Assembly (NCBI GenBank): GCA_027314515.1
Contig: DAHVAR010000104.1
Coordinates: 1 to 46,292 of the forward strand
Direction of reading: 5' to 3'
Source: Actinomycetota bacterium
GTDB taxonomy: Bacteria > Actinomycetota > Actinomycetes > Streptosporangiales > Streptosporangiaceae
Length of the DNA stretch: 46,292 nucleotides
Notes under the pieces: generated by a model
Seen by the model: the letters and a program-made list of their open reading frames with translations, nothing else
Told to the model about the DNA's origin: nothing
The model's database searches: none
Shown: positions 12,142 through 46,063 of the stretch, piece by piece
Layout: every line of letters starts with the position of its first letter
Numbering within the stretch: the stretch's first letter is position 1
Translations under genes and position numbers: made by a program

Positions 12142-12717
12142 TCAGCGATGAGCCCGGCAGGTGCCCGGCGCGGCCAGGTGCTCGGCCGCCGTTGCCAGCG
12201 GCCCGGCCCGCCGGTCTCGCTGTGACATGACGGACACCGGCAGCGGCCAGGGAATGGCCAGTGCCGGGTCATCGAATGCGATCGTCAGGTCCTGCGCCGG
12301 GTCGTGCGCGCGATCAATGCGGTAGGCGACGTCGGCGGGATCGGTAAGGGCCTGAAACCCGTGCGCGCAGCCAGCCGGGACATACAGCGAGACCTGCGCC
12401 AGGCCGTCGAGCTCAAAGCTCTCCCAGTTCAGGTACGTCGGCGAGGCCGGCCGCAGGTCCACGATCACGTCGAACACCGCGCCGTAGGAGCACCGGACCA
12501 GCTTGGCCTCGCCAGCGCCGCCGCGCGCGTGCAGGCCCCGGATTACCCCCCGGCTCGAGCGGGACACGCTGTCCTGCACGAAGCAGTGCGGGTTGAGGCC
12601 GGCATCGCGGATGACGTCACTGTCGAATGTCCGGCAGAAGAAGCCGCGCTCGTCGGCATGCGGCGCGGGCGTGAACAGCAGCGCGCCGGCAATGCGGCCG
12701 ACCGGGGTTACCTGCAC
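12142..12717 (-). CDS. RmlC-type nucleotide-sugar 3,5-epimerase
   Basis: A 191-residue cupin of the dTDP-4-dehydrorhamnose 3,5-epimerase family. It has DERGFFCRTF, the substrate segment with catalytic-base His63 in RGLHARGG, LVRCSYGAVFDVIVDLR, and VPAGCAHGFQAL followed by the acid Tyr132 in ADVAYRID. Both catalytic residues are kept. Starts at GTG with GGAGG 12 bases upstream. No rmlA, rmlB or rmlD is present in the window; the gene is divergent from the GDP-heptose operon. It may therefore act on a GDP-4-keto heptose, as RmlC-like DdahB/MlghB do in Campylobacter, or on a dTDP sugar made elsewhere. The substrate is inference. Confidence 0.85.
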   Translation of the reverse strand: MQVTPVGRIAGALLFTPAPHADERGFFCRTFDSDVIRDAGLNPHCFVQDSVSRSSRGVIRGLHARGGAGEAKLVRCSYGAVFDVIVDLRPASPTYLNWESFELDGLAQVSLYVPAGCAHGFQALTDPADVAYRIDRAHDPAQDLTIAFDDPALAIPWPLPVSVMSQRDRRAGPLATAAEHLAAPGTCRAHR

Positions 12718-12801
12718 TGCGCCCTGTCACCTCCGAGTTGCCCGGATGGGCCTGGTCGTGGCTGTGGTTCGTCGCTTCTATGACCCCGGTGAGCGGCGTG
12801 C

Positions 12802-12858
12802 TGATACCGGCTCCTGCCGGGCCGCCCGCTCGCCGGAACCTGGCCGGACCCGGTATCA
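12802..12858. repeat. 9-bp inverted repeat upstream of the heptose operon
   Basis: TGATACCGG (12802–12810) and CCGGTATCA (12850–12858) are perfect inverted copies 39 bp apart in the 207-bp divergent region between the epimerase gene and gmhB. They could be two operator half-sites. A TATACA box at 12878–12883 lies just downstream in the direction of gmhB. Confidence 0.4.
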
Positions 12859-12924
12859 TCGGCGCTGACCACGGCTCGTATACACGGGCAACAGCCTGCC
12901 CCGGCCAAGCCGAGTAGGGGTGCA

Positions 12925-13482
12925 ATGACGATGTCAGCGATCCGGCCCGGAGTACTGCTGGATCGTGACGGCACGATCATCGTCGATCACGGCTACGTCG
13001 GCTCAGTCGAGCGGGTCGAGTTCATCGACGGCGCCGCGAACGCGATCGCGCGCTTCAACCGGGCGGGTATCCCGGTCGCAGTCCTCACCAACCAGGCGGG
13101 CGTCGCGCGCGGCTTCTACGCCATCGAAGACGTGACCACCGTGCACCGGTATATCGCCCAGCGGCTGGCTGAGCAGCGCGCGCATGTCGATCTGTTCGTG
13201 CACTGCCCCTATCACCCGGCCGGCATCGTCGAGGAGTATGCGCGCACCAGCGAGGACCGGAAACCGCGGCCTGGCATGGCCATGGCCGCACAGGCGGCGC
13301 TGAACCTCGACCTGACGGCGTCCTGGGTTGTCGGTGACCGGCCCGAGGACGTCGGCCTCGCCGATGCGATCGGCGCGTCGGCGGCGTACCTCCGGCCAGG
13401 CTGCTGCGAGCGACCCGGTGTCTGGTTGTTCGAGAACCTGGCCGCCGCGGCGACCTTCATCCTGGCGCGGATCGCAGCATGA
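12925..13482 (+). CDS. gmhB: D-glycero-D-manno-heptose 1,7-bisphosphate 7-phosphatase (GmhB type)
   Basis: A 185-residue HAD phosphatase that removes a phosphate from heptose bisphosphate. HAD motif I is LDRDGT with Asp13 and Asp15; motif II is VLTNQAGVARG; motif III has RKPRPGM; motif IV is VVGDRPEDVGLA. The loop CPYHPAG identifies the GmhB/HisB-N group. Of the four zinc ligands known from E. coli GmhB only Cys94 is kept; the other positions read Tyr96, Ser109 and Asp111. The neighbours gmhA, hddC and hddA make heptose phosphatase by far the best assignment over histidinol phosphatase. Its stop overlaps the gmhA ATG (ATGA). Confidence 0.88.
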   Translation: MTMSAIRPGVLLDRDGTIIVDHGYVGSVERVEFIDGAANAIARFNRAGIPVAVLTNQAGVARGFYAIEDVTTVHRYIAQRLAEQRAHVDLFVHCPYHPAGIVEEYARTSEDRKPRPGMAMAAQAALNLDLTASWVVGDRPEDVGLADAIGASAAYLRPGCCERPGVWLFENLAAAATFILARIAA

Positions 13483-14153
13483 CGTCCATTGAGGATCCGC
13501 CAGCGGTCGTGGCACCCGGTGCTGCCGCGCGGGTGAAGTTTCCGTCCGGCGGGATCCCGACCGCCGGGTGGTACTTCGACGGATACGCGGCGGAGGCGGG
13601 CCGGGCGGCGAGTTCGATCGCGCCCGCTGCCCTGGACCAGGCAGCCGCGATCCTGCTGGCTGCCTACACGCGCGGCGCCCTGGTCTTCAGCTGCGGGAAC
13701 GGGGGCTCTGCCGCTATCGCCAACCATCTGCAGTGCGATCACCTGAAGGGCATCAGGACCGCGACCGACCTGACCCCGAAAGTCGTGAGCCTGTGCGCCA
13801 GCGTGGAGCTTCTCACGGCGATCGCGAACGACACCTGCTACGAGGACACCTTCGCCTACCAGCTTCAGTCGCAGGCGGTCCCCGGCGACGTGCTGATAGC
13901 GATTTCGTCCTCTGGCCGCTCGGCCAACATTGTCCGCGCGCTCACCTGGGCGCGTGACCACGCACTGCACACGATCGCGCTGACCGGCTTCGACGGCGGC
14001 GAGGCGAGATTGCTGGCTGACGTCGCGATTCACGTCAGCGGCACCAACTACGGCGTCATCGAGGACCTGCACCAGGCCGTTATGCACGCACTGGCCCAGT
14101 ACATCCGGCAGTCGCGAATGACAGCGGATGCAATCGCCACGATGAGGTTCTGA
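13479..14153 (+). CDS. gmhA: Sedoheptulose 7-phosphate isomerase (phosphoheptose isomerase)
   Basis: A 224-residue SIS-domain isomerase converting sedoheptulose 7-phosphate to D-glycero-D-manno-heptose 7-phosphate, the first step of heptose supply. The phosphate-binding motifs SCGNGGSAAIANHLQCDHLKG (residues 71–91) and AISSSGRSANI (141–151) are typical of GmhA. The N-terminal 30 or so residues are an extension relative to compact GmhA proteins of about 195 residues. The ATG overlaps the gmhB stop, so translation is coupled. Three bases separate its stop from the following glycosyltransferase. Confidence 0.9.
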   Translation: MTSIEDPPAVVAPGAAARVKFPSGGIPTAGWYFDGYAAEAGRAASSIAPAALDQAAAILLAAYTRGALVFSCGNGGSAAIANHLQCDHLKGIRTATDLTPKVVSLCASVELLTAIANDTCYEDTFAYQLQSQAVPGDVLIAISSSGRSANIVRALTWARDHALHTIALTGFDGGEARLLADVAIHVSGTNYGVIEDLHQAVMHALAQYIRQSRMTADAIATMRF

Positions 14154-14156
14154 CCC

Positions 14157-15377
14157 ATGATTGCCCACGACAGAAGTGGTACCCAGACGATGCCCGTTCC
14201 CGCGGTCGGGGCGCACCGCCGGAAGGCGCCGCTGCGCGTGGCGATCAACCTACTGCAGGACGATCCGGCGAACCCGTCCGGTGCGCACTGGTTCTGGACC
14301 AGGGTCATCCCCGAGATGGCCGGGCGGCTCGAGCCTGCCGAGGAGCTGCACCTGATCGTCAGCCCGAAGGCACGGCCGCTGCACGAGGGCTACGGGCCGA
14401 ACGTGCGCTACATCACCTATCCGTGGTCGAACGAGCGGCGCATGTTGCGGACGCTGTCGGAGCACCTGTACTCGCCGGTCCGGCTGCCGACGAGCCAGAT
14501 CAACGTGCTCAACACGGGTGTCGCGCCGATCGTGAACGCGTCCTGGTCACTCGTCCTGCACCTGAAGACGATGCACGCCTACACCGCCCCGGAGTCGGTC
14601 AAGCCGCTGGCTCGCGCCTACCGGCGGCTCAACTATCCGCGCAGCGCGCGGGCAGCGGATGCAATCATCATCAACTCCCGCAGCCTGCGCTCGGAGGTGG
14701 AGCGTTACCTGAGCGTCGATCCGCTGAAGCTGAAGCTGATCTACGAGGCGGTCGACCATGGCACCTTCCGGCCCGGAGATGCCGGTGCCGCCCGGGCGCA
14801 CCTGCTCTCCTACGGGGTCAGCAAGCCGTTCGTGCTCTTTGTCTCGTCGCTGTGGCCCTATAAGAACTGCGATGGGCTGATGCGGGCGTGGGCGCTTCGC
14901 CGCGGCGAGCTCGGCGGCCGGCAGCTCGTGATCGTCGGCCCGGGGCGGGACGCGCAGTACCTGGCGACGCTGCACGCGCTGGCGGCCGACCTCGGTATAG
15001 CGGACGACCTGGTGTTCGCTGGCGGCGTCTGCCTGGACGAGACCGTGCGCTTCTACCAGGCGGCCGACGCCTTCGTCTACCCGTCGTTCAACGAGACGTT
15101 CGGCCTGCCCATCCTTGAGGCAATGGCCTGCGGGTGCCCGGTCGTGACATCGGATACCAGCGCGATGCCGGAAACCGCCGGCGGAGCGGCGATCCTGTCG
15201 GATCCAGGTGATCCGGCGTCGATCGCGCAGGCATTGATCTGCGCCCTCGGCCCCGGCCGGGACCGGTTGCGCGACCGCGGGCTCCTCCGGGCAAGCCAGT
15301 TCACCTGGGCGGCCACTGCGGCGTCGACGCTGGATGTCTACCGTGAGGTCGCCGAGCGCCGGCGCCGGGCGTCATGA
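14157..15377 (+). CDS. Glycosyltransferase family 4
   Basis: A 406-residue GT-B retaining glycosyltransferase. The C-terminal half has FVLFVSSLWPYKNCDGLMRAW, LVIVGPGRD and the EX7E-type donor-binding segment FNETFGLPILEAMACGCPVV. The N-terminal half is the acceptor domain. No signal peptide; it is expected on the inner face of the membrane. Lying between gmhA and the SDR/hddC/hddA genes, it is the natural candidate for transferring the GDP-heptose (or a derivative) to the lipid-linked glycan. This donor choice is inference. Its stop overlaps the next ATG (ATGA at 15374). Confidence 0.9.
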   Translation: MIAHDRSGTQTMPVPAVGAHRRKAPLRVAINLLQDDPANPSGAHWFWTRVIPEMAGRLEPAEELHLIVSPKARPLHEGYGPNVRYITYPWSNERRMLRTLSEHLYSPVRLPTSQINVLNTGVAPIVNASWSLVLHLKTMHAYTAPESVKPLARAYRRLNYPRSARAADAIIINSRSLRSEVERYLSVDPLKLKLIYEAVDHGTFRPGDAGAARAHLLSYGVSKPFVLFVSSLWPYKNCDGLMRAWALRRGELGGRQLVIVGPGRDAQYLATLHALAADLGIADDLVFAGGVCLDETVRFYQAADAFVYPSFNETFGLPILEAMACGCPVVTSDTSAMPETAGGAAILSDPGDPASIAQALICALGPGRDRLRDRGLLRASQFTWAATAASTLDVYREVAERRRRAS

Positions 15378-16501
15378 AGGTCCTGGTCACCGGCGGCGCC
15401 GGGTTCATCGGCTCGCACACCTGCGATCGGCTGCTGGCGCTCGGGCATGAGGTCGTGGTGCTCGATGCCCTGACGCCGCCCGTGCACCGCGGCGGGCGGC
15501 CCGGCTACCTCGCGCCCGAAGCGGAGTTCTACCAGGGCGACACGCGTGACCGCGATCTCGTCACCAGCCTGCTGCGGCGCGTCGATGCCGTCTGCCACCT
15601 TGCCGCTTACCAGGATTACCTGCCGGATTTCGCCCGGTTCTTCGACGTCAACGTCGTCGCCACCGCGCTGCTGTACGAGATCGTCGTGGCCGAACGCCTG
15701 GACCTGGCGCGAATTGTGGTGGCCTCATCGCAGTCAGCGATGGGCGAGGGCCTTTACTGGTGCCCGTCCGACGGCGGGCAACTGCCGGGCATGCGGTCCG
15801 CGGCCGCACTCGCCGCCGGGCACTGGGACATTCCGTGCCCGCGGTGCGGCGGCCCGCTGGAGATGCGGCCGACTCCCGAGCGGATATCGAATCCGCAGAA
15901 TCCGTACGGCATGTCCAAGCTCGCGCAGGAGATGGTGGCGGTGAACCTCGGCCGCCGCTACGGCATCCCGACCGTGGCGCTGCGGTACAGCATCGTGCAA
16001 GGTCCGCGCCAGTCCGTCTACAACGCGTATTCCGGCGCGTGCCGGATCTTCTGCCTGAGCTACCTGCAGAAAGTCGCGCCGACTGTGTACGAGGACGGCC
16101 TGGCCATCCGTGACTACGTCAACATCGACGATGTCGTCGACGCGAACGTACTGGCGCTGCAGGATGAGCGCGCCGTCGGGCGGGTATTCAACGTCGGCGG
16201 TGGCTCCGCGGTCACGACGCGCGAGTTCGCCGACATCGTCCGGCGGCAGTACGGCTCGGCGCAGCCGGCCGTCGTGACCGGTGACTATCGCGTGGGCGAC
16301 ACGCGGCACATCCTGTCGGACATCGGCGCGCTCTGTGATCTCGGCTGGAAGCCCCGCCGGACGCCCGCCGAGTCCGTCGCCGCGTATGCCGGATGGCTAG
16401 CCGGGATGGACGGCCTCGACGGCGTGCTGGCCGAGGCAGTGCTGGCCGAGGCAGGCAGCCGGATGCGCGCCCTCGGCGTGGTCCGCCGGGCGGGACAGTG
16501 A
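15374..16501 (+). CDS. NAD-dependent epimerase/dehydratase (extended SDR) with CPxC insertion
   Basis: A 375-residue extended SDR acting on nucleotide sugars. The NAD motif GGAGFIG is at residues 7–13, catalytic Ser is in VASSQSAMG, and YGMSK gives Tyr and Lys. Between Ser and YxxxK lies an insertion of about 40 residues with CPRCGG and an upstream lone Cys (YWCPSDGG), resembling half a zinc ribbon. It could be a 4-epimerase or a 4,6-dehydratase on GDP-heptose; sequence motifs do not settle this. It is translationally coupled to the GT4 upstream and to hddC downstream (GTGA overlap). A 15-bp tandem duplication at 16424–16453 gives VLAEAVLAEA near the C-terminus. Confidence 0.85.
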   Translation: MKVLVTGGAGFIGSHTCDRLLALGHEVVVLDALTPPVHRGGRPGYLAPEAEFYQGDTRDRDLVTSLLRRVDAVCHLAAYQDYLPDFARFFDVNVVATALLYEIVVAERLDLARIVVASSQSAMGEGLYWCPSDGGQLPGMRSAAALAAGHWDIPCPRCGGPLEMRPTPERISNPQNPYGMSKLAQEMVAVNLGRRYGIPTVALRYSIVQGPRQSVYNAYSGACRIFCLSYLQKVAPTVYEDGLAIRDYVNIDDVVDANVLALQDERAVGRVFNVGGGSAVTTREFADIVRRQYGSAQPAVVTGDYRVGDTRHILSDIGALCDLGWKPRRTPAESVAAYAGWLAGMDGLDGVLAEAVLAEAGSRMRALGVVRRAGQ

Positions 16502-17220
16502 AGGCCTTCCTGCTCGCGGCGGGTCTCGGCACCCGCTTGCGGCCGCTCACCGATACCGTCCCGAAATGCATGCTGGCCATCAACGGCCGGCCGATGCTCG
16601 ACATCTGGCTCGATGCATTCAGCCGGGCCGGCGTCGACGAGGTCCTCATCAATCTGCATTACCTGCCCGGCATCGTGCGCGCCCACCTGGCCGCGCGGAC
16701 GGCGCCGCCTGCAGTTCGCACGTCCTTCGAGCCGGAACTGCTGGGCAGCGCGGGGACGCTGCGAGCCAACCGGCAGTGGGTGGCAGGCGAGGAGTTCTTC
16801 CTCGCCTGCTATGCCGACAACCTGACTGATTTCGATCTGGGACTGCTGGTGGACGCACACCGGCGCCGCGGCGCCATCGCGACGTGGTCGGTGTTTCACT
16901 CCGAGCATCCGGAGTCTGGTGGCGTGGTCGAGCTGGATGCGGCGGGCCGGGTCGTAGGATTCGCCGAGAAGCCGCGCGAGCCGGCCTCCGATCTGACCAA
17001 TGCCGGGATGTACGCTTTCGCGCCCGGCGTACTTGACTGCATAGCGGCCAGACCACCCAGCGATATCGGCTACGACCTGCTGCCGCGCCTGGTGGGCGAA
17101 GCGTACGCGGTGCTGGTGGACGGCTATTTCCGCGACATCGGTACGGTCGAGGCCTACCAGCGCGCCCGAGCGGACTGGGCGCCGGGCCCGGCCGCCGCCG
17201 GGAGAGTGGCCGCGCAGTGA
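16498..17220 (+). CDS. hddC: D-glycero-alpha-D-manno-heptose 1-phosphate guanylyltransferase (HddC-like)
   Basis: A 240-residue nucleotidyltransferase with signature AAGLGTRLRPLTDTVPKCM at residues 7–25, metal-binding YADNLTD, and FAEKPREPASDLTNAGMY. It joins GMP (from GTP) to heptose 1-phosphate to give GDP-heptose; the specificity is assigned from the neighbouring gmhA, gmhB and hddA genes, since motifs alone only say hexose/heptose-1-phosphate nucleotidyltransferase. The open frame runs back to 16393 inside the SDR gene, but GTG 16498 overlapping the SDR stop gives the expected N-terminus. Its stop overlaps the hddA GTG. Confidence 0.85.
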   Translation: MKAFLLAAGLGTRLRPLTDTVPKCMLAINGRPMLDIWLDAFSRAGVDEVLINLHYLPGIVRAHLAARTAPPAVRTSFEPELLGSAGTLRANRQWVAGEEFFLACYADNLTDFDLGLLVDAHRRRGAIATWSVFHSEHPESGGVVELDAAGRVVGFAEKPREPASDLTNAGMYAFAPGVLDCIAARPPSDIGYDLLPRLVGEAYAVLVDGYFRDIGTVEAYQRARADWAPGPAAAGRVAAQ

Positions 17221-18206
17221 TCATCACCCAGACGCCGTTGCGTCTCGGCCTTCTCGGCGGCGGCACGGACCTGCCCGGTTACTACCGCGAGCACGGCGGC
17301 CGGGTTCTCAACTGCGCTATCGACAAGTACGTCTACGTCATCGTCAAGCAGCGCTTCGACGACGAGATCTACGTCAACTATTCGCAGAAGGAGATCGTCT
17401 CCCGGGTTGAGGACCTCGAGCACGAGCTCGTCAGGGAGACCATGCGCATGACAGGCGTCGGCCGCGGCGTCGAGATCACAACCCTCGCTGACATACCGTC
17501 GGCAGGCTCGGGCCTCGGCTCCTCCTCGGCGGTGACGGTGGGACTGCTGCACGCGCTGTTCGCTTACCAGGGCCGCCAGGTATCTGGCGTCGAGCTAGCG
17601 GAGCTGGCCTGCGAGATCGAGCTCGAGCGCTGCGGCAAGCCGATCGGCAAGCAGGATCAGTACATCGCGGCGCTTGGTGGCATCAGGGACCTGCGGTTCG
17701 GGCCGGGAGAGTCAGTCGAGGCCGGCGAACTCGGGATCTCGACGGCTAAGCGGCGGGCGCTTCAGCAGCAGATCATGCTCTTCTACACCGGCATCACCCG
17801 GAGCGCCAACTCGATCCTGGCGGAACAGAGCGCGAATATCGACGGCGTCCTTCCCCAGCTTGATCTGCTCCGTGACCTTGCCGGGTTCGCCGCTGACTGC
17901 CTGCGCTCCGGCGATGTGGACGCCATCGGCCCGGCCGTCAGGGAGAGCTGGGAGGCCAAGAAGAAGCTCGCGTCAGGCGTGTCGAACGATCAGATCGACG
18001 CTGCGATCGCCGGGGCACTCGATTCCGGGGCCTCTGGCGTGAAGCTGACGGGGGCCGGCGGCGGCGGTTTCCTGCTCGTGCTGTGTCCCGTCGAGCGGCA
18101 GAGCGCGGTGCGGGCCGCGCTGCCGCAGTTGCGGGAGTTGCCGGTGAAATTCGATCACCTGGGCTCGCGCGTCGTGCTCAACGTGCTCCGGGATATCTGG
18201 TGCTGA
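17217..18206 (+). CDS. hddA: D-glycero-alpha-D-manno-heptose 7-phosphate kinase (HddA)
   Basis: A 329-residue GHMP-family kinase. The ATP loop AGSGLGSSSAVTVGLLHA spans about residues 96–113, the N-terminal substrate motif is TPLRLGLLGGGTDLPGYY, and the C-terminal GHMP motif is KLTGAGGGGFLLVL. HddA phosphorylates heptose 7-phosphate at C1 in the alpha configuration, the step that commits heptose to the GDP branch rather than the ADP branch. Together with gmhA, gmhB and hddC this completes the GDP-D-glycero-alpha-D-manno-heptose pathway. It is the last gene of the operon and is convergent with the Wzz-like gene. Confidence 0.9.
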   Translation: MIITQTPLRLGLLGGGTDLPGYYREHGGRVLNCAIDKYVYVIVKQRFDDEIYVNYSQKEIVSRVEDLEHELVRETMRMTGVGRGVEITTLADIPSAGSGLGSSSAVTVGLLHALFAYQGRQVSGVELAELACEIELERCGKPIGKQDQYIAALGGIRDLRFGPGESVEAGELGISTAKRRALQQQIMLFYTGITRSANSILAEQSANIDGVLPQLDLLRDLAGFAADCLRSGDVDAIGPAVRESWEAKKKLASGVSNDQIDAAIAGALDSGASGVKLTGAGGGGFLLVLCPVERQSAVRAALPQLRELPVKFDHLGSRVVLNVLRDIWC

Positions 18207-32340: not shown

Positions 32341-33675
32341 GTGGCCGTTTCCTCCCGGCGGATCCCGGCGGCGCAGTCCTGGCGCCTGGCGCGGGCGGCG
32401 GGCCGCCGTCTCACCTGGGGTGTCGGCGATCAGGCCCTGTCCACGCTGACGAACTTCCTGCTGACGATTTACGTCGCCCGCGTACTCGGGGCGGTGCAAT
32501 TCGGCGCCTTCAGCCTGGCCTACGTAACGTACGGGTTCGCGATCAACGCATCGCGGGGCCTGTCGATCGAGCCTCTCCTGGTCAGGTTCAGCGGCACGGA
32601 GGTGCAGATCTGGCGGCGCGCCGCGGCGGGCTGCACTGGCACTGCGCTGCTTGTCGGCCTAGCCGCCGGAACCTGCGCGCTGATCGCGGGGCTGGTCGTG
32701 GGCGGTGCTACCGGCCTGGCCTTTCTCGCCCTCGGGGTCACGCTGCCCGGACTGCTGCTGCAGGATAGCTGGCGGTACTCATTCTTCGCAGTAGGCCGCG
32801 GCCACCATGCCTTCATCAATGACGCGGTCTGGGCGGCTGTGCAGATCCCGTTGCTGCTGGTCCTGACGATGACCGGACACGCGAACGTGTTCTGGTTCGT
32901 CCTCGCCTGGGGTGCAGCCGCCACCGTCGGGGCGCTTATCGCCCCGCTGCAGGCGAGGGTCATGCCCAGCCTCGCGCAGGCGCTGCAATGGCTATCGCGA
33001 CACCGCGACCTCGGTCCGCGCTACCTGGCGGAGAATACCGCGGGAAATGCCAGCGACATGGTGCGCAGCTACGCTCTCTCACTCATTCTCGGACTCGCTG
33101 CCGTGGGTTACATCCAGGCCGCGAACGTCCCGATGGGGCCCTTCAAGATCATCTATTTCGGGGCAAGCCTGATCTTGATGCCGGAGGCGGCCCGGCTCTT
33201 GCGCCGTTCACCCCGGCAATTGCCGCTCTTCTGCGCGGCTGTCAGCAGCGGGTTCGCCGTACTCGGGCTGGCGTGGGGAGTTGCGCTGCTGGTGGCGCTA
33301 CCCCGCGGACTCGGCCAGTTGATGCTTGGCAGCATCTGGAGGCCGGCGTATCCGCTTGTGCTGCCGGGAGTGATTAACATCCTGGGCACCTGCGCGAGCA
33401 CCGGTGCGCTGCTGGGCTTGCATGCCCTCGGCGTTGCGCGCCGCAGCCTGCGCGCCGTCGTGCTCAGCTCGGTGCTGATCGTGACCTGCGGGCTGGTAGG
33501 GGCCATTACCGCAGGCACGCTCGGCACAGTACGGTACGTCGCAGTCGCGTCGTGGGTCAGCGCGCTGGTGTACTGGTGGCAATTCAGGCTGGCGCTGGGC
33601 GAGTCGCGCACCGCGGCCATCCCCGCCTGGTTGTGGCCACGCCGCCGGCCGGCCCGTCATCGTCGTCCGCGCTGA
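32341..33675 (+). CDS. Wzx-like polysaccharide flippase / MOP-family exporter
   Basis: A 444-residue polytopic protein with about 12 predicted helices. The start RLTWGVGDQALSTLTNFLLTIYVARVLGAVQFGAFSLA is the classic pattern of the polysaccharide-biosynthesis branch of the MOP superfamily. It would flip lipid-linked repeat units to the outer face of the membrane, feeding the Wzy-like protein encoded at 21339–22577. The GTG start lies two bases after the heparinase stop. It is the last gene of the six-gene operon and is convergent with the aminotransferase gene 12 bases away. Confidence 0.88.
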   Translation: MAVSSRRIPAAQSWRLARAAGRRLTWGVGDQALSTLTNFLLTIYVARVLGAVQFGAFSLAYVTYGFAINASRGLSIEPLLVRFSGTEVQIWRRAAAGCTGTALLVGLAAGTCALIAGLVVGGATGLAFLALGVTLPGLLLQDSWRYSFFAVGRGHHAFINDAVWAAVQIPLLLVLTMTGHANVFWFVLAWGAAATVGALIAPLQARVMPSLAQALQWLSRHRDLGPRYLAENTAGNASDMVRSYALSLILGLAAVGYIQAANVPMGPFKIIYFGASLILMPEAARLLRRSPRQLPLFCAAVSSGFAVLGLAWGVALLVALPRGLGQLMLGSIWRPAYPLVLPGVINILGTCASTGALLGLHALGVARRSLRAVVLSSVLIVTCGLVGAITAGTLGTVRYVAVASWVSALVYWWQFRLALGESRTAAIPAWLWPRRRPARHRRPR

Positions 33676-38277: not shown

Positions 38278-39396
38278 ATGAAGGTCCTGGTGGCCGGCGA
38301 TGGCGGTTATATCGGAGCCGTCCTGGTTCCTTTCTTGCGAGCAGGCGGCCACGAGGCCGACGGGCTGGATCTCGGGCTCTACGACGGTTGTGATCTCGGC
38401 GTCATGCCCGCAGGCGTTGGCGCGGGCCCGCCCGCTGACATCAGGGACGTCACCGCGGCCCGGCTGGCCGGCTATGACGCGGTCGTCTGCCTGGCCGCGC
38501 TGTCCAACGACCCGCTCGGGCATCTCAACCCGGCCGCGACCTATTCCGTCAATCTGGCCGGGACACTGTGCCTGGCCAGGGCTGCCAAGCGGGCTGGCAG
38601 CCAGCGATTCATCTTCGCGTCGTCCTGCAGCCTTTACGGTGCGGCCGGCTCAGCCGGCGTAGCTGAGGACGGCGAGCTGACTCCGCTCACGCCGTATGGC
38701 GAGACGAAGGTCCTGGCTGAGCGAGAGCTGTCCAGGCTTGCAGGCGACGACTTCAGCCCCGTTTGCCTGCGGAACGCCACAGCGTACGGCGCCTCGCCGC
38801 GGTTGCGGCTGGATATCGTGGTGAACAACCTCACCGCCGCCGCGATGACTACCGGCGAGGTGCGGCTGGAGAGCGACGGGACTTCGTGGCGGCCGTTTGT
38901 CCATGTCGAGGACATCAGCCGGGCGATCCTGGCCACGCTTGAGGCCCCCCGGCAGCTGGTGCACGATCAGGCGTTCAATGTCGGCCGCTTTGACGACAAC
39001 CTGCAGATCTGCGATATCGCTGGCCTGGTGCGGGACGCCAGTCCCGGGTCTAAGATCACGTTTGCCGACGGGGCCGGGCCCGATGTCCGCAACTACCGGG
39101 TCGACTTCGCCAAGCTGCACGACACCTTCCCTGACCTCGCGCTGCACTGGACCGTGCAGGCTGGCATCGACGAACTGGTCTCCGCTTACGCCCAGCACGA
39201 CCTCAGTTACGACGACTTCGTGTCCGCGCGGTTCGTCCGGCTCCGGCGGATCCGCGAGCTGCTGGCGGCCGGGGTGGTTGATGACGCACTGCGGCGGACA
39301 ACGGACGGCACGCTCCCCGGAGCGGGGTTCCGCGCGCCGGAGTTCCGCACGCCGGGGAACACTGTCAGCAGCTCCGCTGCAGCACCAGCATCTTGA
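38278..39396 (+). CDS. NAD-dependent nucleotide-sugar epimerase/dehydratase (extended SDR)
   Basis: A 372-residue extended SDR. NAD motif GDGGYIG (residues 7–13), Ser in FASSCSLYGAAG, and YGETK for Tyr/Lys give a full catalytic triad; PFVHVEDISRAI is the usual substrate-loop region. Epimerase, dehydratase and reductase activities cannot be separated by these motifs. Related proteins commonly sit beside C-methyltransferases and nucleotidyltransferases in deoxysugar pathways, which is the case here. Transcribed alone on the plus strand. Its last 32 bases overlap the 3' end of the convergent DUF218 gene. Confidence 0.88.
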   Translation: MKVLVAGDGGYIGAVLVPFLRAGGHEADGLDLGLYDGCDLGVMPAGVGAGPPADIRDVTAARLAGYDAVVCLAALSNDPLGHLNPAATYSVNLAGTLCLARAAKRAGSQRFIFASSCSLYGAAGSAGVAEDGELTPLTPYGETKVLAERELSRLAGDDFSPVCLRNATAYGASPRLRLDIVVNNLTAAAMTTGEVRLESDGTSWRPFVHVEDISRAILATLEAPRQLVHDQAFNVGRFDDNLQICDIAGLVRDASPGSKITFADGAGPDVRNYRVDFAKLHDTFPDLALHWTVQAGIDELVSAYAQHDLSYDDFVSARFVRLRRIRELLAAGVVDDALRRTTDGTLPGAGFRAPEFRTPGNTVSSSAAAPAS

Positions 39397-40017: not shown

Positions 40018-40677
40018 CTACCAGCGCTGAATCTGCAGCAGCGCCTTCGGGCAGGCGAATGCCTCTGCGTACCTCGCACGGCACTCCACGCCGCGCAGCC
40101 GGGCGAGGCCGAGGAATACCTCGTCATCCCACCAGTCCCGGCTGCTCTGTGACGGGAAGCACTTGTGCAGCAGCGCTACCTTGCGCCGGACGATTTCGCC
40201 TGGCAGCGGGACGTACACCGACGGCCGGCTGAAGTCGCCATCCCACTTCGGGATTTCATAGCCGAGGTAAAGCTGATCGCGACAGACGGTCGGCACGATC
40301 TCCGCGATGGTCCGGTGGTCCTGATGGGCATCGGCAGGCTGCGGGGCGATGACAACATCGGGCCGGAACGACCGCGTTACCTCTTCGATGGTGTCCTTGA
40401 CCTGTCCCCAGGCCGCCGGCAGTCGTCCCTCGGGGAAATCGCAGCGGCGGACCGACACCTGCGCGCCGGGCAGGAATTCGATAGCTGCCGATTCCGCCTC
40501 AAGCTGACGTTCCGGCGTGCCGGTCAGCACCAGGTGGCAGGCGCGCACGCTGGCGTGGCTCTGGGCCAGGCTCAGCAACGTCCCGCCCGCGCCGATCTCG
40601 ATGTCGTCCGGATGGGCGCCGATGGCAAGCACCGACAGCGGCCCGCTCGGCGGGGCGGCAAGGTGCAGGGGCAGCAC
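40018..40677 (-). CDS. PIG-L family (LmbE-like) N-deacetylase
   Basis: A 219-residue zinc hydrolase. The AHPDD motif is at residues 21–25 and the third zinc ligand is in AHQDHRTIAE. PIG-L proteins remove N-acetyl groups from GlcNAc-containing lipids, mycothiol precursors or antibiotic sugars. Here deacetylation of an amino sugar in the glycan or of a nucleotide sugar is likely. Mycothiol-specific MshB or Mca identity is not supported by the neighbours. GTG start lies two bases after the nucleotidyltransferase stop; it has no signal peptide. Confidence 0.88.
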   Translation of the reverse strand: MLPLHLAAPPSGPLSVLAIGAHPDDIEIGAGGTLLSLAQSHASVRACHLVLTGTPERQLEAESAAIEFLPGAQVSVRRCDFPEGRLPAAWGQVKDTIEEVTRSFRPDVVIAPQPADAHQDHRTIAEIVPTVCRDQLYLGYEIPKWDGDFSRPSVYVPLPGEIVRRKVALLHKCFPSQSSRDWWDDEVFLGLARLRGVECRARYAEAFACPKALLQIQRW

Positions 40678-40679
40678 GG

Positions 40680-41495
40680 TCAGCCCGGCCGCAGGACCGG
40701 CGCCGGCACCGACCTGTCACGATCCCAGATCATCCAGGGACAGTGGCCGCGGTCATACAGGGCTTCAAGATGCGCCCGCTCCTTGACTGTGTCGGCCGGT
40801 GACCAGTAGCCCTTGTACGGGTAGGCGAGAACGCGCCGCAGCGGGACCAGCCGGCGCATGAGTGCGTCCTCCACCAGGTCCTCGCCCTCGCTCAGGTGGT
40901 TAAAGATCTCCGGCCTGAGCACGAAATAGCCGCCGTTCTCCCATTGCCGGAGATCACGCATGGGAGTCAGCTGACTGATCAGTCCGTCGTCGCCGATCTC
41001 AACCACATGGGAGGACGACTGCGGCGGCACGGCCAGCAGGCTCGCCGTCGCGCTGGTGGCCGCGAACCTCCCGATCATGTCCGGCAGCGGCGCATCGGTC
41101 AGTACGTCGGCGTAGTTCGCCAGGAACATGGGCTCGTCTTCGACGAACTGCCGCACCCGGCGGAGCCGCTCACCGATCGGGGACTGCAGCCCGGTGTCGA
41201 CGAAAGTGATGCGCCAATCGGATATGTCGGTGCTGAACAGTCTCAGGTCGCGGGCACCGTTCTCGAGCACGAAGTCGTTCGACCTGGTCTCGTCGTAGTG
41301 CAGGAAGAAGTCCTTGACGTACGAGGCGCCATAGCCAAGGCACAAGATGAAGTCGGTGTGCCCGAAGTGAGCGTAATAACGCATGACATGCCACAGCAAC
41401 GGTCGCTCTCCGACCATCGCCATCGGCTTCGGCCCGGTGTTGACCCCGTCGCGCATGCGCATGCCAAGGCCGCCGCAGAACAGGACGACTTTCAC
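40680..41495 (-). CDS. Glucose-1-phosphate cytidylyltransferase-like nucleotidyltransferase (RfbF family)
   Basis: A 271-residue sugar nucleotidyltransferase. The N-terminal LFCGGLGMRMRDGVNTGPKPM and the following WHVMRYYAHFGHTDFILCLGYGASYVKDFF, then ITFVDTGLQSPIGERLRRV, follow RfbF (CDP-glucose synthase) closely. The expected metal-binding YGDG is replaced by LANYADVLTD. CDP-glucose would feed 3,6-dideoxy or branched sugars, but no CDP-glucose 4,6-dehydratase with certain identity is in the window. GTG start with GGAGGG 7 bases upstream. Operon: C-methyltransferase, this gene, PIG-L, DUF218. Confidence 0.87.
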   Translation of the reverse strand: MKVVLFCGGLGMRMRDGVNTGPKPMAMVGERPLLWHVMRYYAHFGHTDFILCLGYGASYVKDFFLHYDETRSNDFVLENGARDLRLFSTDISDWRITFVDTGLQSPIGERLRRVRQFVEDEPMFLANYADVLTDAPLPDMIGRFAATSATASLLAVPPQSSSHVVEIGDDGLISQLTPMRDLRQWENGGYFVLRPEIFNHLSEGEDLVEDALMRRLVPLRRVLAYPYKGYWSPADTVKERAHLEALYDRGHCPWMIWDRDRSVPAPVLRPG

Positions 41496-41510: not shown

Positions 41511-42743
41511 CTAGACGATCTCCAGCCCGGGAATCGGGAAGACGAGGCGCCCGCCCCACTCCCTGACGTACTCAAGCTGCGTGGTTAGCTCCGCCCGCAG
41601 GTTCCAGGGGAGGACGAGGACGTAATCGGGCCTGGTCCGGGCCAGCTGGTCCGGCGGGTAAACGGGAATGCGCGTGCCAGGCAGGAACTTGCCCTGCTTC
41701 ACCGGGCTCCGGTCGACGGTGTAGGGGAGCAGGTCGGACCGGATGCCGCAATGGTTGAGCAGCGTGTTTCCCTTGCCGGGGGCTCCGTATCCGGCCACGG
41801 AACGGCCCTCCCGCGCGGCGGCCAGCAGGAAGCCGAGCAACTCCGACTTGATCTGGAGCACCTCGGTGGCGAAGCCCTCGTGCCCGCCGAGTGCGTGCAG
41901 GCCCGCCCTGTCCTCGGCGTCCAGCACGGCCTTGACCCTGCTGGCAGGCTCGCCCGCGGTCTGCGCCGGTCGCGCGTGGACGCGCAGCGAGCCGCCGTGG
42001 GTCGCAAGCTCGTCGACGTCGACCACGGTCAGCCCGGCGGTCGCCAGCACCCGCGAGGCTGTCAGCAGCGACAGGTAGGAGTAATGCTCGTGGTAGATGG
42101 TGTCGTACTGGCGGCCCTCGATCAGGCGCAGCAGGTGCGGGAACTCCAGTGTCACCAGGCCGCCGCCGGCTACCAGCGCGCGCAGGCCGGCCGCGAAGCC
42201 GCGGATATCCGGGACATGCGCAAGCACGTTGTTGGCGACGACCAGGTCGGCGCGGCCGTACCGCTGCGCGATCTCCCGGCCAGCCTGCGGGCCGAGAAAC
42301 CGGACCTCGGTCCTGATGCCCTTCGCCCTGGCGGCCTGCGCCACGTTGGCGGCCGGCTCGACGCCGAGTACCGGCACGCCGGCGGCGGCGAAATGCTGCA
42401 GCAGGTAGCCGTCGTTACTGGCGACCTCGGTGACCAGGCTGTGCGGGCCAAGGCCGAGCCGGGCCGTCATGTCGTCGGCGTACCGCTTGGCATGCGCCAC
42501 CCATGAATCCGAATACGAGGAGAAATACGCGTAGTCCGAGAAGATGTCCTCGCCAGCCACGTACGCCGGCAACTGCACGAGCAGGCATGACTCGCAGACG
42601 CGTACGTGCAGCGGGTAGAAGGTCTCGGGATCGTCGGCTCGGTCAGCGGCGATGTAGCTTTCACACAGCGGGGACATGCCGAGGTCCACGAAGGTCCGGT
42701 TGAGGCTCGTGCCGCACAGACGGCAGGAATGGGTTACCGCCAC
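41511..42743 (-). CDS. Sugar C-methyltransferase (zinc-knuckle SAM methyltransferase)
   Basis: About 410 residues with three parts: an N-terminal zinc-binding region (CRLCG and CESC), a SAM domain with motif I VTEVASNDGYLLQHF, and a C-terminal region with VAGYGAPGKGNTLLNHCGI. The layout is that of deoxysugar C-3-methyltransferases (TylC3/TcaB9 group). The active-site segment TIYHEHYSYLSLL keeps the Glu-His pair. It would install a C-methyl branch on a 4-keto nucleotide sugar. The frame is open to 43016; GTG 42743 with GGAG 6 bases upstream is preferred over ATG 42785, which has no ribosome site and nearly abuts the divergent gene. Confidence 0.87.
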   Translation of the reverse strand: MAVTHSCRLCGTSLNRTFVDLGMSPLCESYIAADRADDPETFYPLHVRVCESCLLVQLPAYVAGEDIFSDYAYFSSYSDSWVAHAKRYADDMTARLGLGPHSLVTEVASNDGYLLQHFAAAGVPVLGVEPAANVAQAARAKGIRTEVRFLGPQAGREIAQRYGRADLVVANNVLAHVPDIRGFAAGLRALVAGGGLVTLEFPHLLRLIEGRQYDTIYHEHYSYLSLLTASRVLATAGLTVVDVDELATHGGSLRVHARPAQTAGEPASRVKAVLDAEDRAGLHALGGHEGFATEVLQIKSELLGFLLAAAREGRSVAGYGAPGKGNTLLNHCGIRSDLLPYTVDRSPVKQGKFLPGTRIPVYPPDQLARTRPDYVLVLPWNLRAELTTQLEYVREWGGRLVFPIPGLEIV

Positions 42744-42787
42744 GCCGGGCTCCGACGTCGGGTTCTGGTGCGGCGAGGAGTGCATGG

Positions 42788-43900
42788 ATGAGCGAGAATG
42801 CGTGCCGGGCGTGCCGTGGGCGCACCGGGGACCTGGTCCTCGACCTGGGCTCGCAGCCTGCCTGCGATTACTTCCCGTCGCGCGATGAGCCCGGACCAGA
42901 CCCTGCCTATCCGCTGCAGATGTGGCTGTGCGCGGACTGCGGCCTGGCTCAGCTGGCCGCCGACCCGACCACGCCGGAGGAGGCGCGCGGAACTGAGCCC
43001 GCTGCCCTGACGGCACAGGCGGCCGATGCCGTGAGCCGGGTCGCTGCCGCCGGCCTGCTGGCCGGCCGGGCGACGGCCGCCGAGTATGGCAGCCCGCACG
43101 GCGGGTCCTGGCTCGGCCTGCTGGCCGCCCGAGGGCTCACGCCGGTAGCTGGCGACCAGCCGGCCGACGTGGTCGTTGACTGTTTCGGCATGATGCACGC
43201 GCGTGCTCAGTCGGCCGCGCTGGCCAGCCGGGCGGCGCGGATGAAGGCCGGGGGGATGCTGCTGCTCCAGTACCACTCGCTGAGCGCCATCGTCCGGCAA
43301 GGGCAGTGGAACGCACTGCGTCACGGGCATTATGCCTATTACTCGACAACCGCCCTGGTGACGATGCTGGCGGCAGCAGGCCTGCGCGCGCGGACGGCAT
43401 GGAGTTTCGACCTCTACGGCGGAACGGTCCTGCTCGCCGCTCAGCGCGCGGCCGAGGATCCGGTCGGCCCGGACGAATCGGTGCGCGGGCTGCTCGCCGA
43501 CGATGCCGCTGCCGGTGTTCGCGATCCGCGCGTGCTGGCCGGCCTGCAGCGCGACTGCCAGGTCAAGGCGGAAAGCCTGCGAGCGTGGCTGTCGGCGCAA
43601 TCGGAGGCAGGCAGATGCGTGCTCGGCTACGGCGCGGCGTCGCGCGCGGTCGCGCTGCTGCGACACGCCGAGGTGGATTCGAGGCTGCTGCCGGCGGTCG
43701 TCGACGCCTCGCCGCGGAAGCAGGGCTTGCGGATGCCCGGCACGGACATCCCTATCGTCGGCCCAGCCGAGCTCACCGCACGCAAGCCCGGCGCCGTGCT
43801 GTTGTTCGTTGCCGATCTCCGGGCAGAGGTTACTGCCTGCCACCCCGAGGTCGAAGCCGCGGGCGGAAGCTGGATCGACGCGGATGCGGTCGGCTTCTGA
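42788..43900 (+). CDS. Degenerate C-methyltransferase-like protein
   Basis: A 370-residue divergent relative of the neighbouring C-methyltransferase. The zinc-knuckle region (CRACRG, CADCG) and the C-terminal domain (VLGYGAASRAVALLRHAEVD) are kept. The SAM motif is not: the stretch AAEYGSPHGGSWLGLLAARG replaces the E-SNDGYLL pattern, and the active-site segment reads LRHGHYAYYS, losing the Glu. It may bind a nucleotide sugar without methylating it, partner the other protein, or use another cofactor. ATG 42788 has AGGAG 8 bases upstream. Convergent with the sigma gene 11 bases away. Confidence 0.78.
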   Translation: MSENACRACRGRTGDLVLDLGSQPACDYFPSRDEPGPDPAYPLQMWLCADCGLAQLAADPTTPEEARGTEPAALTAQAADAVSRVAAAGLLAGRATAAEYGSPHGGSWLGLLAARGLTPVAGDQPADVVVDCFGMMHARAQSAALASRAARMKAGGMLLLQYHSLSAIVRQGQWNALRHGHYAYYSTTALVTMLAAAGLRARTAWSFDLYGGTVLLAAQRAAEDPVGPDESVRGLLADDAAAGVRDPRVLAGLQRDCQVKAESLRAWLSAQSEAGRCVLGYGAASRAVALLRHAEVDSRLLPAVVDASPRKQGLRMPGTDIPIVGPAELTARKPGAVLLFVADLRAEVTACHPEVEAAGGSWIDADAVGF

Positions 43901-43911
43901 CATGGCGCGCA

Positions 43912-44562
43912 TCAGGTGGCCTGAAGCACTAGCCGCAGCCGCTCAAGGCACCTGCCCCTGGTCGGGCCGATACTGCCGATAGGCACGCCGAGCTGGTCAG
44001 ATATCTCGGTGTAGGACACCGGCGGGTCGGCCATCAGCAATTCAAGCAACTGCTGCGAGCGGGACGGCAGGGTCGACAGCGCGTCGCGGACAGCCTGAGC
44101 CCGTTCCTCGGCCAGCAGGCGTTCGTCGACGTCCGGCTGATGGCCGACGGCCTCGCTGAACGCATCGTGGTCATCCCGGACGACCAGGACTCTCTTGCCT
44201 GCTGCCAAGTGCCGCAGGCACTCATGGCGTGCGGTCGTCGCCAGCCAGCTGGCAATCCGCTCCGGATACTCGATGCGATGGATGTGCTCCAGCAGGCGCA
44301 GCCAGGTTGCCTGGACGACATCAGCCGCGTCGCTCTCGGCAAGCTTGAAGTCGCGGGTCATCGCCCACAGCAGCCGCGAGTACTGGTCGACCAGGCGTTC
44401 CCACGCTGCCCGATCCCCGGCGGCGGCCGACCGTACCAGCCGCGCGAGGTCCGCAGCGCCATCGTCTTGCTCCGGTATCATGGCGCGTTCGCCCGCGGCC
44501 AAGGCCGGCGACGTACCATTGTTGTCCGCACGACGGCGGGTTGTGCTAACCCGCACAGTCAC
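43912..44562 (-). CDS. ECF-type RNA polymerase sigma factor (GSIGPTR group)
   Basis: About 216 residues. Region 2: AAWERLVDQYSRLLWAMTRDFKLAESDAADVVQATW; region 4: LSTLPSRSQQLLELLM, then the helix-turn-helix with the signature VPIGSIGPTRGRCLERLR common to one actinobacterial ECF group. GTG 44562 has AGGGGGA 5–6 bases upstream and is preferred; the frame is open to 44610, and ATG 44481 is also possible. No anti-sigma gene follows. It lies 37 bases after the sugar transferase gene on the same strand, so the two are probably co-transcribed; control of the glycan locus by this factor is inference. Confidence 0.88.
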   Translation of the reverse strand: MTVRVSTTRRRADNNGTSPALAAGERAMIPEQDDGAADLARLVRSAAAGDRAAWERLVDQYSRLLWAMTRDFKLAESDAADVVQATWLRLLEHIHRIEYPERIASWLATTARHECLRHLAAGKRVLVVRDDHDAFSEAVGHQPDVDERLLAEERAQAVRDALSTLPSRSQQLLELLMADPPVSYTEISDQLGVPIGSIGPTRGRCLERLRLVLQAT

Positions 44563-44599
44563 GCCATCCCCCTTTGCTCGCTGAGTGAGTGCCGGCTGG

Positions 44600-46063
44600 T
44601 CAATAGGCACCGTTCCCGTGCCATACCGCCGACCAGGTCTTCCACAGGATTTGGAGATCGAGGACGAATGACCAGTTCTCGACGTAGCTCACGTCGAGTC
44701 GCACGGCCTCGTCGAAGGGGAGGTCGGATCGCCCGTTCACCTGCCACAGGCCCGTCAGGCCCGGCTTGACGGCCAGGCGCCGCCGCACGTAGTCCCCGTA
44801 GGCAATCGCCTCCTCGGGCAGCGCCGGGCGCGGCCCGACCAGCGACATGTCGCCAACCAGGACGTTGATCAGCTGCGGCAGTTCATCCAGGGAGTAGCGC
44901 CGCAGCCACCTGCCAACCCGGGTGATCCGGGGGTCTTCGCGGATCTTGAAGAGCAGGCCGTCGGTGTCGTTCAGCGGTCTCAGCTGAGCCTTCCGGCTTT
45001 CGGCATCGACGCTCATGGTCCGGAACTTGCAGAGGGTGAACAACTTCCCGCCCTGGCCGACCCTGGTCTGCCGGAACAGCGCAGGCCCGCCGTCGCCAAG
45101 CCAGACGGCCACCGCGAGCGCCGCCATCGCGGGCAGCAGAAGCAGCAGGCATGCGCAGGCGGCCATCCGGTCGAACGCGGACTTGATCAGCCACCGGACG
45201 CCGGTGAATTCCGGGTGATCCAGGTGCAGCAGCGGAAGACCGGCTGTCGGCCTGATCGTGGTGCGAGGGCCGGCCACGTCCAGGAGCGCGGGCGCCACGC
45301 AAAGGTCGGTGCCGGTCTTCTCCAGAGACCAGGCGAGGTCACGCAACCGCGCGCCGATCATCTCGGGGCAGGCCAGCACTGCCACCGTGTCGGCGCGGCA
45401 CCGCCGCACGACCTCGAGCACATTACCGAGGCCGCCGGTCACCAGGACCCCGTCAATGTCCGCCGGCCGGTCCGGGCCGAGCACGCAGGCGGCAACGACG
45501 AACAGCCCGTGATGCGTATCCCGCCGGAGTGCGGCTATCAGGTCCGCGGCAACGTCGGCATGACCGACGACCACCACTCTCCGCATGCAGTGCCCGAGCG
45601 CGCGAAGGCGGTGGAGGCGCTTGCGCAGCCAGTACCTGACAGGCAGGTCAAGGGCGGTAAGGCAGGGCAGCGACACGACGACATAGCCACGGGCTAGGTC
45701 GGTCTTGCTGGCATATGCGACGATCGCGACGACTGCGGTCAGGCAGACCCCGGCATTGACCACCCGCCGGTACTCGTCAGTTCCGACGCCAATGAAGCGG
45801 CTATCGTAGGCGCCCGCGAGAGCCAATGCGATCAGCCATAGGGCCGGCAGCGCAAGACCAAGCCAGAAATAGGCGGCCGCCGCGGACGCGTCGTCCCCGA
45901 ATCGCACCTCGAATGCCAGCAGGCCGGCTGCCAGCCCGCAGCAGCCGTCGGCGATGAGCGCCTGCCGTAGGTAGGCGCTCATCCATGCCGCTGCGCGACC
46001 GGTAGCGACAGTGGTGACCGGACCGATCCGCAGCGGTTCGGGCGCAGTCATGTTCTCGGCCAC
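44600..46063 (-). CDS. Polyprenyl-phosphate sugar-1-phosphate transferase (WbaP/PssA-type initiating enzyme)
   Basis: A 487-residue membrane enzyme that begins glycan synthesis by moving a sugar 1-phosphate to undecaprenyl phosphate. The N-terminal half has four or five transmembrane helices and a CoA-binding-like cytosolic domain (VVVGHADVAADLIAAL). The catalytic C-terminal domain, about 290–487, starts with a helix and contains FRQTRVGQGGKLFTLCKFRTM, RRYSLDELPQLINVLVGDMSLVGPRP and KPGLTGLWQVNGRSDL. Start is GTG 46063 with AGGAGA 8 bases upstream. It is the likely first enzyme for the polymer built by the rest of the locus; the first sugar is unknown. Confidence 0.93.
   Translation of the reverse strand: MAENMTAPEPLRIGPVTTVATGRAAAWMSAYLRQALIADGCCGLAAGLLAFEVRFGDDASAAAAYFWLGLALPALWLIALALAGAYDSRFIGVGTDEYRRVVNAGVCLTAVVAIVAYASKTDLARGYVVVSLPCLTALDLPVRYWLRKRLHRLRALGHCMRRVVVVGHADVAADLIAALRRDTHHGLFVVAACVLGPDRPADIDGVLVTGGLGNVLEVVRRCRADTVAVLACPEMIGARLRDLAWSLEKTGTDLCVAPALLDVAGPRTTIRPTAGLPLLHLDHPEFTGVRWLIKSAFDRMAACACLLLLLPAMAALAVAVWLGDGGPALFRQTRVGQGGKLFTLCKFRTMSVDAESRKAQLRPLNDTDGLLFKIREDPRITRVGRWLRRYSLDELPQLINVLVGDMSLVGPRPALPEEAIAYGDYVRRRLAVKPGLTGLWQVNGRSDLPFDEAVRLDVSYVENWSFVLDLQILWKTWSAVWHGNGAY

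Follow-up and report, generated by a model that had tools for sequence, protein, structure and literature searches.

Which sugar is made by an actinobacterial operon that combines the genes of GDP-heptose synthesis with a short-chain dehydrogenase/reductase (SDR), and does the RmlC-type epimerase encoded beside that operon take part? The operon lies on a contig (C135) of a Streptosporangiaceae bacterium, and we analysed the whole contig (46,292 bases, 68.6% GC), which we call the window. The window comes from a draft assembly (280 contigs, 5.86 Mb) with a completeness of 97.9%. As the first-pass annotation of this sequence described, there are seven open reading frames here: six are coupled in a single operon on the + strand (12925-18206), in the order gmhB-gmhA-GT4-SDR-hddC-hddA, where GT4 is a family 4 glycosyltransferase, and a divergent gene encodes the RmlC-like protein. 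That annotation also offered a modified heptose as a hypothesis, because in Campylobacter a dehydratase and an RmlC-like epimerase make GDP-6-deoxyheptoses; the SDR and the RmlC-like protein were its candidates for such a conversion of GDP-heptose.

We favor another explanation, and as a whole we give it about an even chance of being right. The cassette would make GDP-heptose, and its SDR would then act as an epimerase on this nucleotide sugar. The position is most likely C4, and the enzyme would pass through a short-lived 4-keto intermediate by means of an NAD that it holds. The product would be GDP-D-glycero-D-talo-heptose, and the GT4 protein would transfer it into the exopolysaccharide that the rest of the locus builds. 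The RmlC-type epimerase would serve a second sugar pathway of the locus, along with an RfbF-type cytidylyltransferase, another SDR (SDR2), a C-methyltransferase, and a PIG-L protein. What the sequences show is the operon, the protein families, the changed residues, and the gene linkage; from these we infer GDP as the nucleotide, the substrate of the SDR, the epimerisation and its position and stereochemistry, and the role of the GT4 protein in transfer.

Linkage of the heptose genes and the cassette SDR

The six genes are tightly packed: four of the five junctions are overlaps (ATGA or GTGA) and the remaining one is a gap of 3 bases. The start of hddC is likely the GTG at 16498, which overlaps the stop codon of the SDR gene, as the start that was listed for its open reading frame (16393) is too far upstream.

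An SDR that is at least 79% identical to the window's is encoded by 6 of 200 genomes from the family, including the window's own. The other five all have the cassette in the identical gene order (contig ends truncate hddA in G105 and gmhB in G126), and their glycosyltransferases are 71-77% identical to ours. At a threshold of 1e-85, the SDR was found in the same six among 345 genomes of the order and in 3 of 396 genomes that were sampled from the phylum. In G245, which belongs to another family of the class and is assembled in 7 contigs, the six genes are all present in a single locus of similar type; hddC-hddA is about 20 kb away from the other four genes there, and the glycosyltransferase is 67% identical. 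In G591, the SDR is found together with all four heptose genes. Outside the phylum, among the matches listed (for the generic pattern GAGFIGSH), the SDR also accompanies all four heptose genes in Jannaschia p1 and in metagenome-assembled genomes (MAGs) of Phycisphaerales and Methylibium. A Desulfosudis MAG has the SDR with three heptose genes and no match to gmhB. Counting all of these, there are 11 genomes or records besides the window's in which the SDR neighbors three or all four of the heptose genes. We also considered 80 loci with SDR homologues from outside this branch of the family: none of them had three or four heptose genes, one had two, 10 had one, and 69 had none. These patterns support the view that the four heptose genes and the SDR, plus the glycosyltransferase in close relatives, are a single conserved unit.

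There is a precedent for a GDP-heptose pathway in an actinobacterium: the route has been described for Mycobacterium tuberculosis (PMC7705670). Compared with the routes of M. tuberculosis and Campylobacter, the window groups the same set of four enzyme families in a single operon, and it adds a linked GT4 gene and a dedicated SDR. On the other hand, the window's GmhA has Asp in place of Glu and its proteins score under curated cut-offs (see below). What is new here is the cassette SDR as a dedicated enzyme.

Table 1. Genes of the cassette, of the second sugar set, and of two gene rows in other genomes
Feature	Record	Position	Strand	Remarks
RmlC-type epimerase	window	12142..12717	-	PF00908 5.1e-54; His63, Tyr132; judged to lie outside the heptose cassette
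gmhB-like HAD phosphatase (heptose 1,7-bisphosphate 7-phosphatase)	window	12925..13482	+	DxDGT-type and RKP motifs present
gmhA-like SIS isomerase (sedoheptulose 7-phosphate isomerase)	window	13479..14153	+	catalytic His kept, catalytic Glu replaced by Asp
GT4 glycosyltransferase, presumed heptosyltransferase	window	14157..15377	+	conserved in relatives' cassettes
Cassette SDR, predicted nucleoside diphosphate (NDP)-heptose epimerase	window	15374..16501	+	Ser119, Tyr178, Lys182, Arg246 kept; Gln120, Ser121, Ile207 distinctive
hddC-like sugar-1-phosphate nucleotidyltransferase	window	16498..17220	+	nearest solved relatives are mannose-1-phosphate guanylyltransferases
hddA-like GHMP kinase (heptose 7-phosphate 1-kinase)	window	17217..18206	+	
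SDR2, likely partner of RmlC	window	38278..39396	+	best PDB match 6vo6
PIG-L deacetylase-like protein, RmlC/SDR2 set	window	40018..40677	-	
Glucose-1-phosphate cytidylyltransferase (RfbF) homologue, RmlC/SDR2 set	window	40680..41495	-	no Pfam match at default threshold
Sugar C-methyltransferase (Methyltransf_13/14), RmlC/SDR2 set	window	41511..43016	-	
Heptose/RmlC gene row of G343	L129	3968-10345		
Heptose/RmlC gene row of G480	L133	4142-10472		

Predicted chemistry of the cassette SDR

Nucleotide-sugar 4,6-dehydratases presumably have an Asp-Glu pair after the catalytic Ser/Thr. In the cassette SDR, the positions that align to this pair are Gln120-Ser121, while Ser118/119, Tyr178, and Lys182 are in place. 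On this motif we reject a 4,6-dehydratase, and with it the Campylobacter-like route to a 6-deoxyheptose that the first-pass annotation drew on.

In a tree of 43 rows, the SDR belongs to a single branch of 13 proteins (support 100/100), 12 of which are linked to heptose genes, and by motif this branch lies near the dTDP-L-rhamnose 4-epimerases. Gln120, Ser119, and Ile207 are found in all 13 members; Ser118 is Ala in one of them (L044). In an earlier tree with 10 heptose-linked rows, these formed one branch. After two rows were added, the heptose-linked label requires two changes, because a Streptomyces plasmid copy, which is the thirteenth member and lies near the base of the branch, falls within; a single change suffices in 6% of bootstrap trees. 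(Before both trees, SDR rows below 155 bits, or 7 of 48, were excluded, and L149 and L151 were represented by aligned segments.)

By motif, we take the nearest broader family to be the dTDP-L-rhamnose 4-epimerases, such as WbiB and Tle (MAB_4111c). In Tle from Mycobacterium abscessus, the substitutions Y181A, S121A, N210A, and R249A abolish 4-epimerisation of dTDP-rhamnose (PMC11549994). The spacings in Tle (Y-N 29, Y-R 68, and S-Y 60) lead to Ile207, Arg246, and Ser118 (or its neighbor Ser119) in the cassette SDR. By this spacing, which is equal in the two, the SDR keeps the Ser/Tyr/Lys triad and the Arg of WbiB and Tle, but every one of the 13 branch members has Ile in place of the substrate Asn that is essential in Tle (Asn210). 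So catalysis looks retained and the substrate looks changed. The SDR also differs from WbiB and Tle in its SSQ[SA]-type and YSIV[QH]G motifs and in having a heptose rather than a rhamnose context. The AlphaFold model of the SDR (predicted local distance difference test score, or pLDDT, of 92.8) has as its best structural matches mostly sugar 4-epimerases, with Z of 36-39. We also considered a metal-binding role for a CPxC insert in the SDR, but the cysteines are absent from the Jannaschia protein, so this role is not essential to the branch.

Several points weigh against a C4 epimerase. The correspondence to Tle is based on spacing and not on an alignment with the Tle sequence. A dTDP-glucose dehydratase (1ker) is among the structural matches (Z 37.3, rank 12), so the function cannot be read from the fold. 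To our knowledge, there is no substrate or product on record for any member of the branch, and our searches of open-licence papers for GDP-heptose or heptose 4-epimerases and for talo-heptose brought up no function assigned to it. There are no heptose genes within 9 kb of the Streptomyces plasmid copy (L018), even though it has the same signature. And the Jannaschia, Phycisphaerales, and Methylibium clusters contain a further SDR that is 30-33% identical to SDR2, so the pathway may have extra steps there.

As to what surrounds the plasmid copy (L018, 9001-10125), a class III aminotransferase, an alcohol dehydrogenase, and glycosyltransferases are encoded nearby, and the locus lies near a peptide cluster of the thiazole/oxazole-modified microcin (TOMM) type.

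It is also possible, if rather unlikely, that the SDR changes an NDP-heptose in another way: by epimerisation at C6 or C2, or by a one-way oxidation or reduction. The residues of the SDR are also compatible with epimerisation at C2, C3, or C6 and with a one-way redox step. HldD performs C6 epimerisation on an ADP sugar, and the SDR does match the model for ADP-heptose 6-epimerase (TIGR02197, 74 bits), but the NCBIfam models for GalE (115 bits) and RmlB (102 bits) score higher. Similarly, CDP-tyvelose 2-epimerase is among the structural matches (Z 35.7), but it is ranked under many 4-epimerases. The alternatives that we discuss here and below are not all mutually exclusive, and the chances we assign to them need not sum to one.

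The C4 epimerase that we prefer would be distinct from what is described for Campylobacter, where a 4,6-dehydratase or a C4-dehydrogenase, then a C3/C5-epimerase, and then a C4-reductase act on GDP-heptose (PMC10680097, PMC7949155). The C3-type epimerases of Campylobacter are covered in PMC10440746, and PMC3546167 puts forward functions for Cj1427, Cj1428, and Cj1430 as hypotheses. The C. jejuni products that are listed in the part of PMC10680097 available to us do not include GDP-talo-heptose, so by that list the Campylobacter relay does not cover the talo isomer. The two systems are alike in that the window is also predicted to modify GDP-heptose and has an RmlC-type protein nearby. They are unlike in that the cassette SDR lacks the dehydratase pair and in that we found no RmlC beside the other cassettes.

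Assignment of the four heptose genes

The first-pass annotation described a complete GDP-heptose route. This is correct for the gene set, but when we compared each heptose enzyme to its specific NCBIfam model, all four scored below the curated cut-offs: 125 bits versus 178 for GmhB (two broad HAD models do pass their own cut-offs), 114 versus 209 for GmhA, 152 versus 600 for HddA, and 64 versus 300 for HddC. For HddA, the best model is nevertheless HddA itself. For HddC, nine other nucleotidyltransferase models score higher, although none reaches its own cut-off; the top one is mannose-1-phosphate guanylyltransferase (113 bits), and long RmlA (86 bits) is also above HddC. Also, an alignment of GmhA to 1x92 places Asp at the position of the catalytic Glu, with the catalytic His kept, and that Glu is given as the catalytic base in PMC7705670. 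These low scores and the altered GmhA count against the pathway, and we assign the genes to heptose synthesis by family and gene set only.

It is quite unlikely, we think, that the four genes make another sugar, for example from a mannose-type precursor. Besides the scores, with HddC only tenth among the models, what fits this idea is that the nearest solved relatives of the nucleotidyltransferase are mannose-1-phosphate guanylyltransferases (105 bits, versus 53 bits for 6jq8, a protein of the 6-deoxy-D-mannoheptose pathway), that the top matches of the kinase in PDB (4usm and 4usk) are putative sugar kinases, and that all 12 clusters with the cassette SDR encode a GmhA with this Asp. (Of 8 further heptose clusters that we examined in the class, 6 also have the Asp, and L131 and L132 keep Glu.) On the other side, the nearest structures to GmhB (3l8e and 2gmw) and to GmhA (1x92) are heptose enzymes, and heptose kinases (3k85 and 4n3o) are third and fourth for HddA. 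Together, the four families are the known gene set for GDP-heptose. The matches of the nucleotidyltransferase seem to fit GDP as the nucleotide, and they leave the choice of sugar open. As a gene set, and judging from sequence, the GDP-heptose assignment appears to hold. We also note that the GmhB-like protein lacks the CxC half of what we take to be the usual zinc loop.

The RmlC-type epimerase and the rest of the locus

The RmlC-like gene diverges from the cassette across 207 bases. As annotated, its His63 and Tyr132 are intact, and the protein scores 153.0 bits against a cut-off of 155.75 for TIGR01221. It is the sole PF00908 protein that a search of the genome found. The first-pass annotation noted the lack of rmlABD, and for rmlA and rmlB this can be extended to the genome, with some reservation: among nine matches to the RmlB model, none is an RmlB above the cut-off, and no RmlA was read among seven PF00483 proteins. 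This PF00483 search was not exhaustive (it missed the cytidylyltransferase at 40680-41495), and no search for RmlD was made. Because no rmlA or rmlB was recognised, we set aside a role for RmlC in making dTDP-rhamnose. We also asked if a Gmd on contig C163 could be a hidden GDP-heptose dehydratase. It scores 365 bits to the GDP-mannose dehydratase 1rpn versus 104 bits to 7us5, which is a GDP-heptose dehydratase, so it is a canonical Gmd.

Whether RmlC belongs with the cassette can be judged from where each is found. In the 200 family genomes, RmlC has a match in 60 (15 of these at 70% identity or above), SDR2 has a match in 65, and 59 have both (Fisher p 1.6e-42; these counts assume that the searches for RmlC, the cassette SDR, and SDR2 drew the same 200 genomes, and they are not corrected for kinship). 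Outside of the window, 43 RmlC matches share a contig with SDR2, always within 18 kb, and 16 are on other contigs. The window's own copies lie on either side of the cassette, separated by 26 kb. The tie between RmlC and the cassette SDR is weaker: the SDR is found in 5 of the 60 genomes with RmlC versus 1 of the 140 others (p 0.01), a signal that comes from a single genus and from G013, where RmlC has just 51% identity. In G078, G145, G160, and G019, RmlC is 0.2 to 3.3 kb from a CNNM gene that borders the locus; of these four, only G145 has a match to the cassette SDR, and it is on another contig. Furthermore, we found no RmlC around the 11 other clusters of the SDR with heptose genes, in stretches that ranged from 7 to 21 kb (and were longer for G245); for two of these clusters, which are 7-kb contigs, this is a weak test. 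Genome-wide, 6 of the 7 other cassette genomes do hold some PF00908 protein elsewhere, while G002 (92% complete) has the cassette and no PF00908 protein. So the partnership that the first-pass annotation drew between RmlC and the cassette is not supported, and the position of RmlC beside the cassette is most likely an accident of neighborhood.

Instead, RmlC probably belongs to a set that makes a C-methylated, CDP-linked sugar. We base this on its co-occurrence with SDR2, on the similarity of the 40680-41495 protein to glucose-1-phosphate cytidylyltransferase (1tzf, 3.9e-44), and on the grouping of homologous genes elsewhere. Mesorhizobium plasmid pWSM1497 groups homologues of SDR2 (52% identity), RmlC (44%), the C-methyltransferase (52%), the nucleotidyltransferase (42%), and PIG-L (46%), and in G022 (L138) the same five are side by side. 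A Leisingera cluster has homologues of SDR2, the C-methyltransferase, and the cytidylyltransferase but no RmlC; the other two also share RmlC and PIG-L with the window. Unlike these clusters, the window has its set in two parts, as about 26 kb separate RmlC from the other members. We did not recognise a CDP-glucose 4,6-dehydratase among the matches to the RmlB model that we read in this genome (a weak match on C258 was left unread), so this route may start with an oxidation by SDR2.

On the Leisingera plasmid (L123, 10001-12343), parts similar to SDR2 and to the C-methyltransferase lie within one annotated protein, immediately after a gene for glucose-1-phosphate cytidylyltransferase. This suggests that the two proteins work together. 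In the RmlC-like protein, His138 is found in 18 of 18 closer relatives (at least 59% identity), and it is Tyr in a second RmlC copy of L138 and in the Mesorhizobium copy.

There is also evidence for an RmlC-modified heptose, which counts against this separation of pathways. The best PDB match of SDR2 is 6vo6, which we take to be Cj1427, the GDP-heptose C4-dehydrogenase of Campylobacter. Cj1427 oxidises GDP-heptose at C4 with a tightly held NADH, and C3/C5-epimerases and then C4-reductases act on the product, which gives the Campylobacter route a dehydratase-free branch (PMC10680097). By analogy, SDR2 might oxidise GDP-heptose at C4, RmlC might epimerise it at C3/C5, the C-methyltransferase might methylate it, and a reductase would complete the modified heptose. 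Also, G343 encodes GmhA, an SDR2-like protein, a C-methyltransferase-like protein, an RmlC-like protein, a second SDR, an HddC/GmhB fusion, and HddA in consecutive genes, and G480 has matches in the same order. (Both are small genomes of the same class, of 1.2 and 1.5 Mb. G392, from the family of G343, has matches to the C-methyltransferase, HddA, SDR2, GmhA, and GmhB in a different order, and no match to RmlC.) SDR2 adjoins gmhB in G105, the cassette SDR is enriched in genomes with RmlC, and RmlC and SDR2 flank the cassette in the window. Nevertheless, we consider it decidedly unlikely that this is how the window's genes work. The cassette SDR is absent from 55 of the 60 genomes with RmlC, G002 has the cassette without any PF00908 protein, and the cytidylyltransferase adjoins the C-methyltransferase. 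The window's SDR2 is 49-53% identical to the copies in RfbF-linked clusters, versus 33-35% for its SDR2 and RmlC against the G343 and G480 copies (35% for SDR2). We rely on these identities, as support in the SDR2 tree (47/42) is too weak to place the G343 and G480 copies. The rows in G343 and G480 are themselves candidates for a pathway to a C-methylated or epimerised heptose.

Finally, that the cassette SDR is a true dTDP-L-rhamnose 4-epimerase, which makes dTDP-6-deoxy-L-talose and is merely beside the heptose genes, would suit its presumed wider family and the RmlC next door, but it is highly improbable given the Ile at the position of Asn210 in 13 of 13 branch members, a genome in which no RmlA or RmlB was read, and an SDR that accompanies heptose genes across phyla.

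The exopolysaccharide locus spans about 12 to 46 kb of the window. Besides the genes in Table 1, it encodes a Wzz-like protein (just under the cut-off), glycosyltransferases, a UDP-glucose dehydrogenase-type enzyme, an AsnB-like amidotransferase, a two-domain oxidoreductase, a heparinase II/III-like protein, a pyruvyltransferase, an aminotransferase, and a priming sugar transferase. To the left of the locus are hrcA, dnaJ, phoH, and the CNNM gene. The encoded DnaJ shares 78% identity with the Nonomuraea gerenzanensis protein and about 50% with its second-best match in a plasmid collection, as would be expected of an actinobacterium. At the other end, a gene for a sigma-70-like factor (43912-44610, - strand) adjoins the priming sugar transferase. 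A hydrophobic protein of 444 residues (32341-33675), with no Pfam match, gives the impression of a Wzx-type flippase from its sequence.

With slightly less than even confidence, we propose that the cassette SDR is the first of a novel epimerase family for GDP-heptose. Its members would alter the configuration of intact GDP-heptose in a single step, without the Campylobacter relay, and the module would have spread among actinobacteria, proteobacteria, desulfobacteria, and planctomycetes. Our analysis also corrects a tempting pairing of the heptose cassette with the adjacent RmlC. If the cassette makes and epimerises GDP-heptose as we propose, then it would mark a heptose-containing surface glycan in these actinobacteria.

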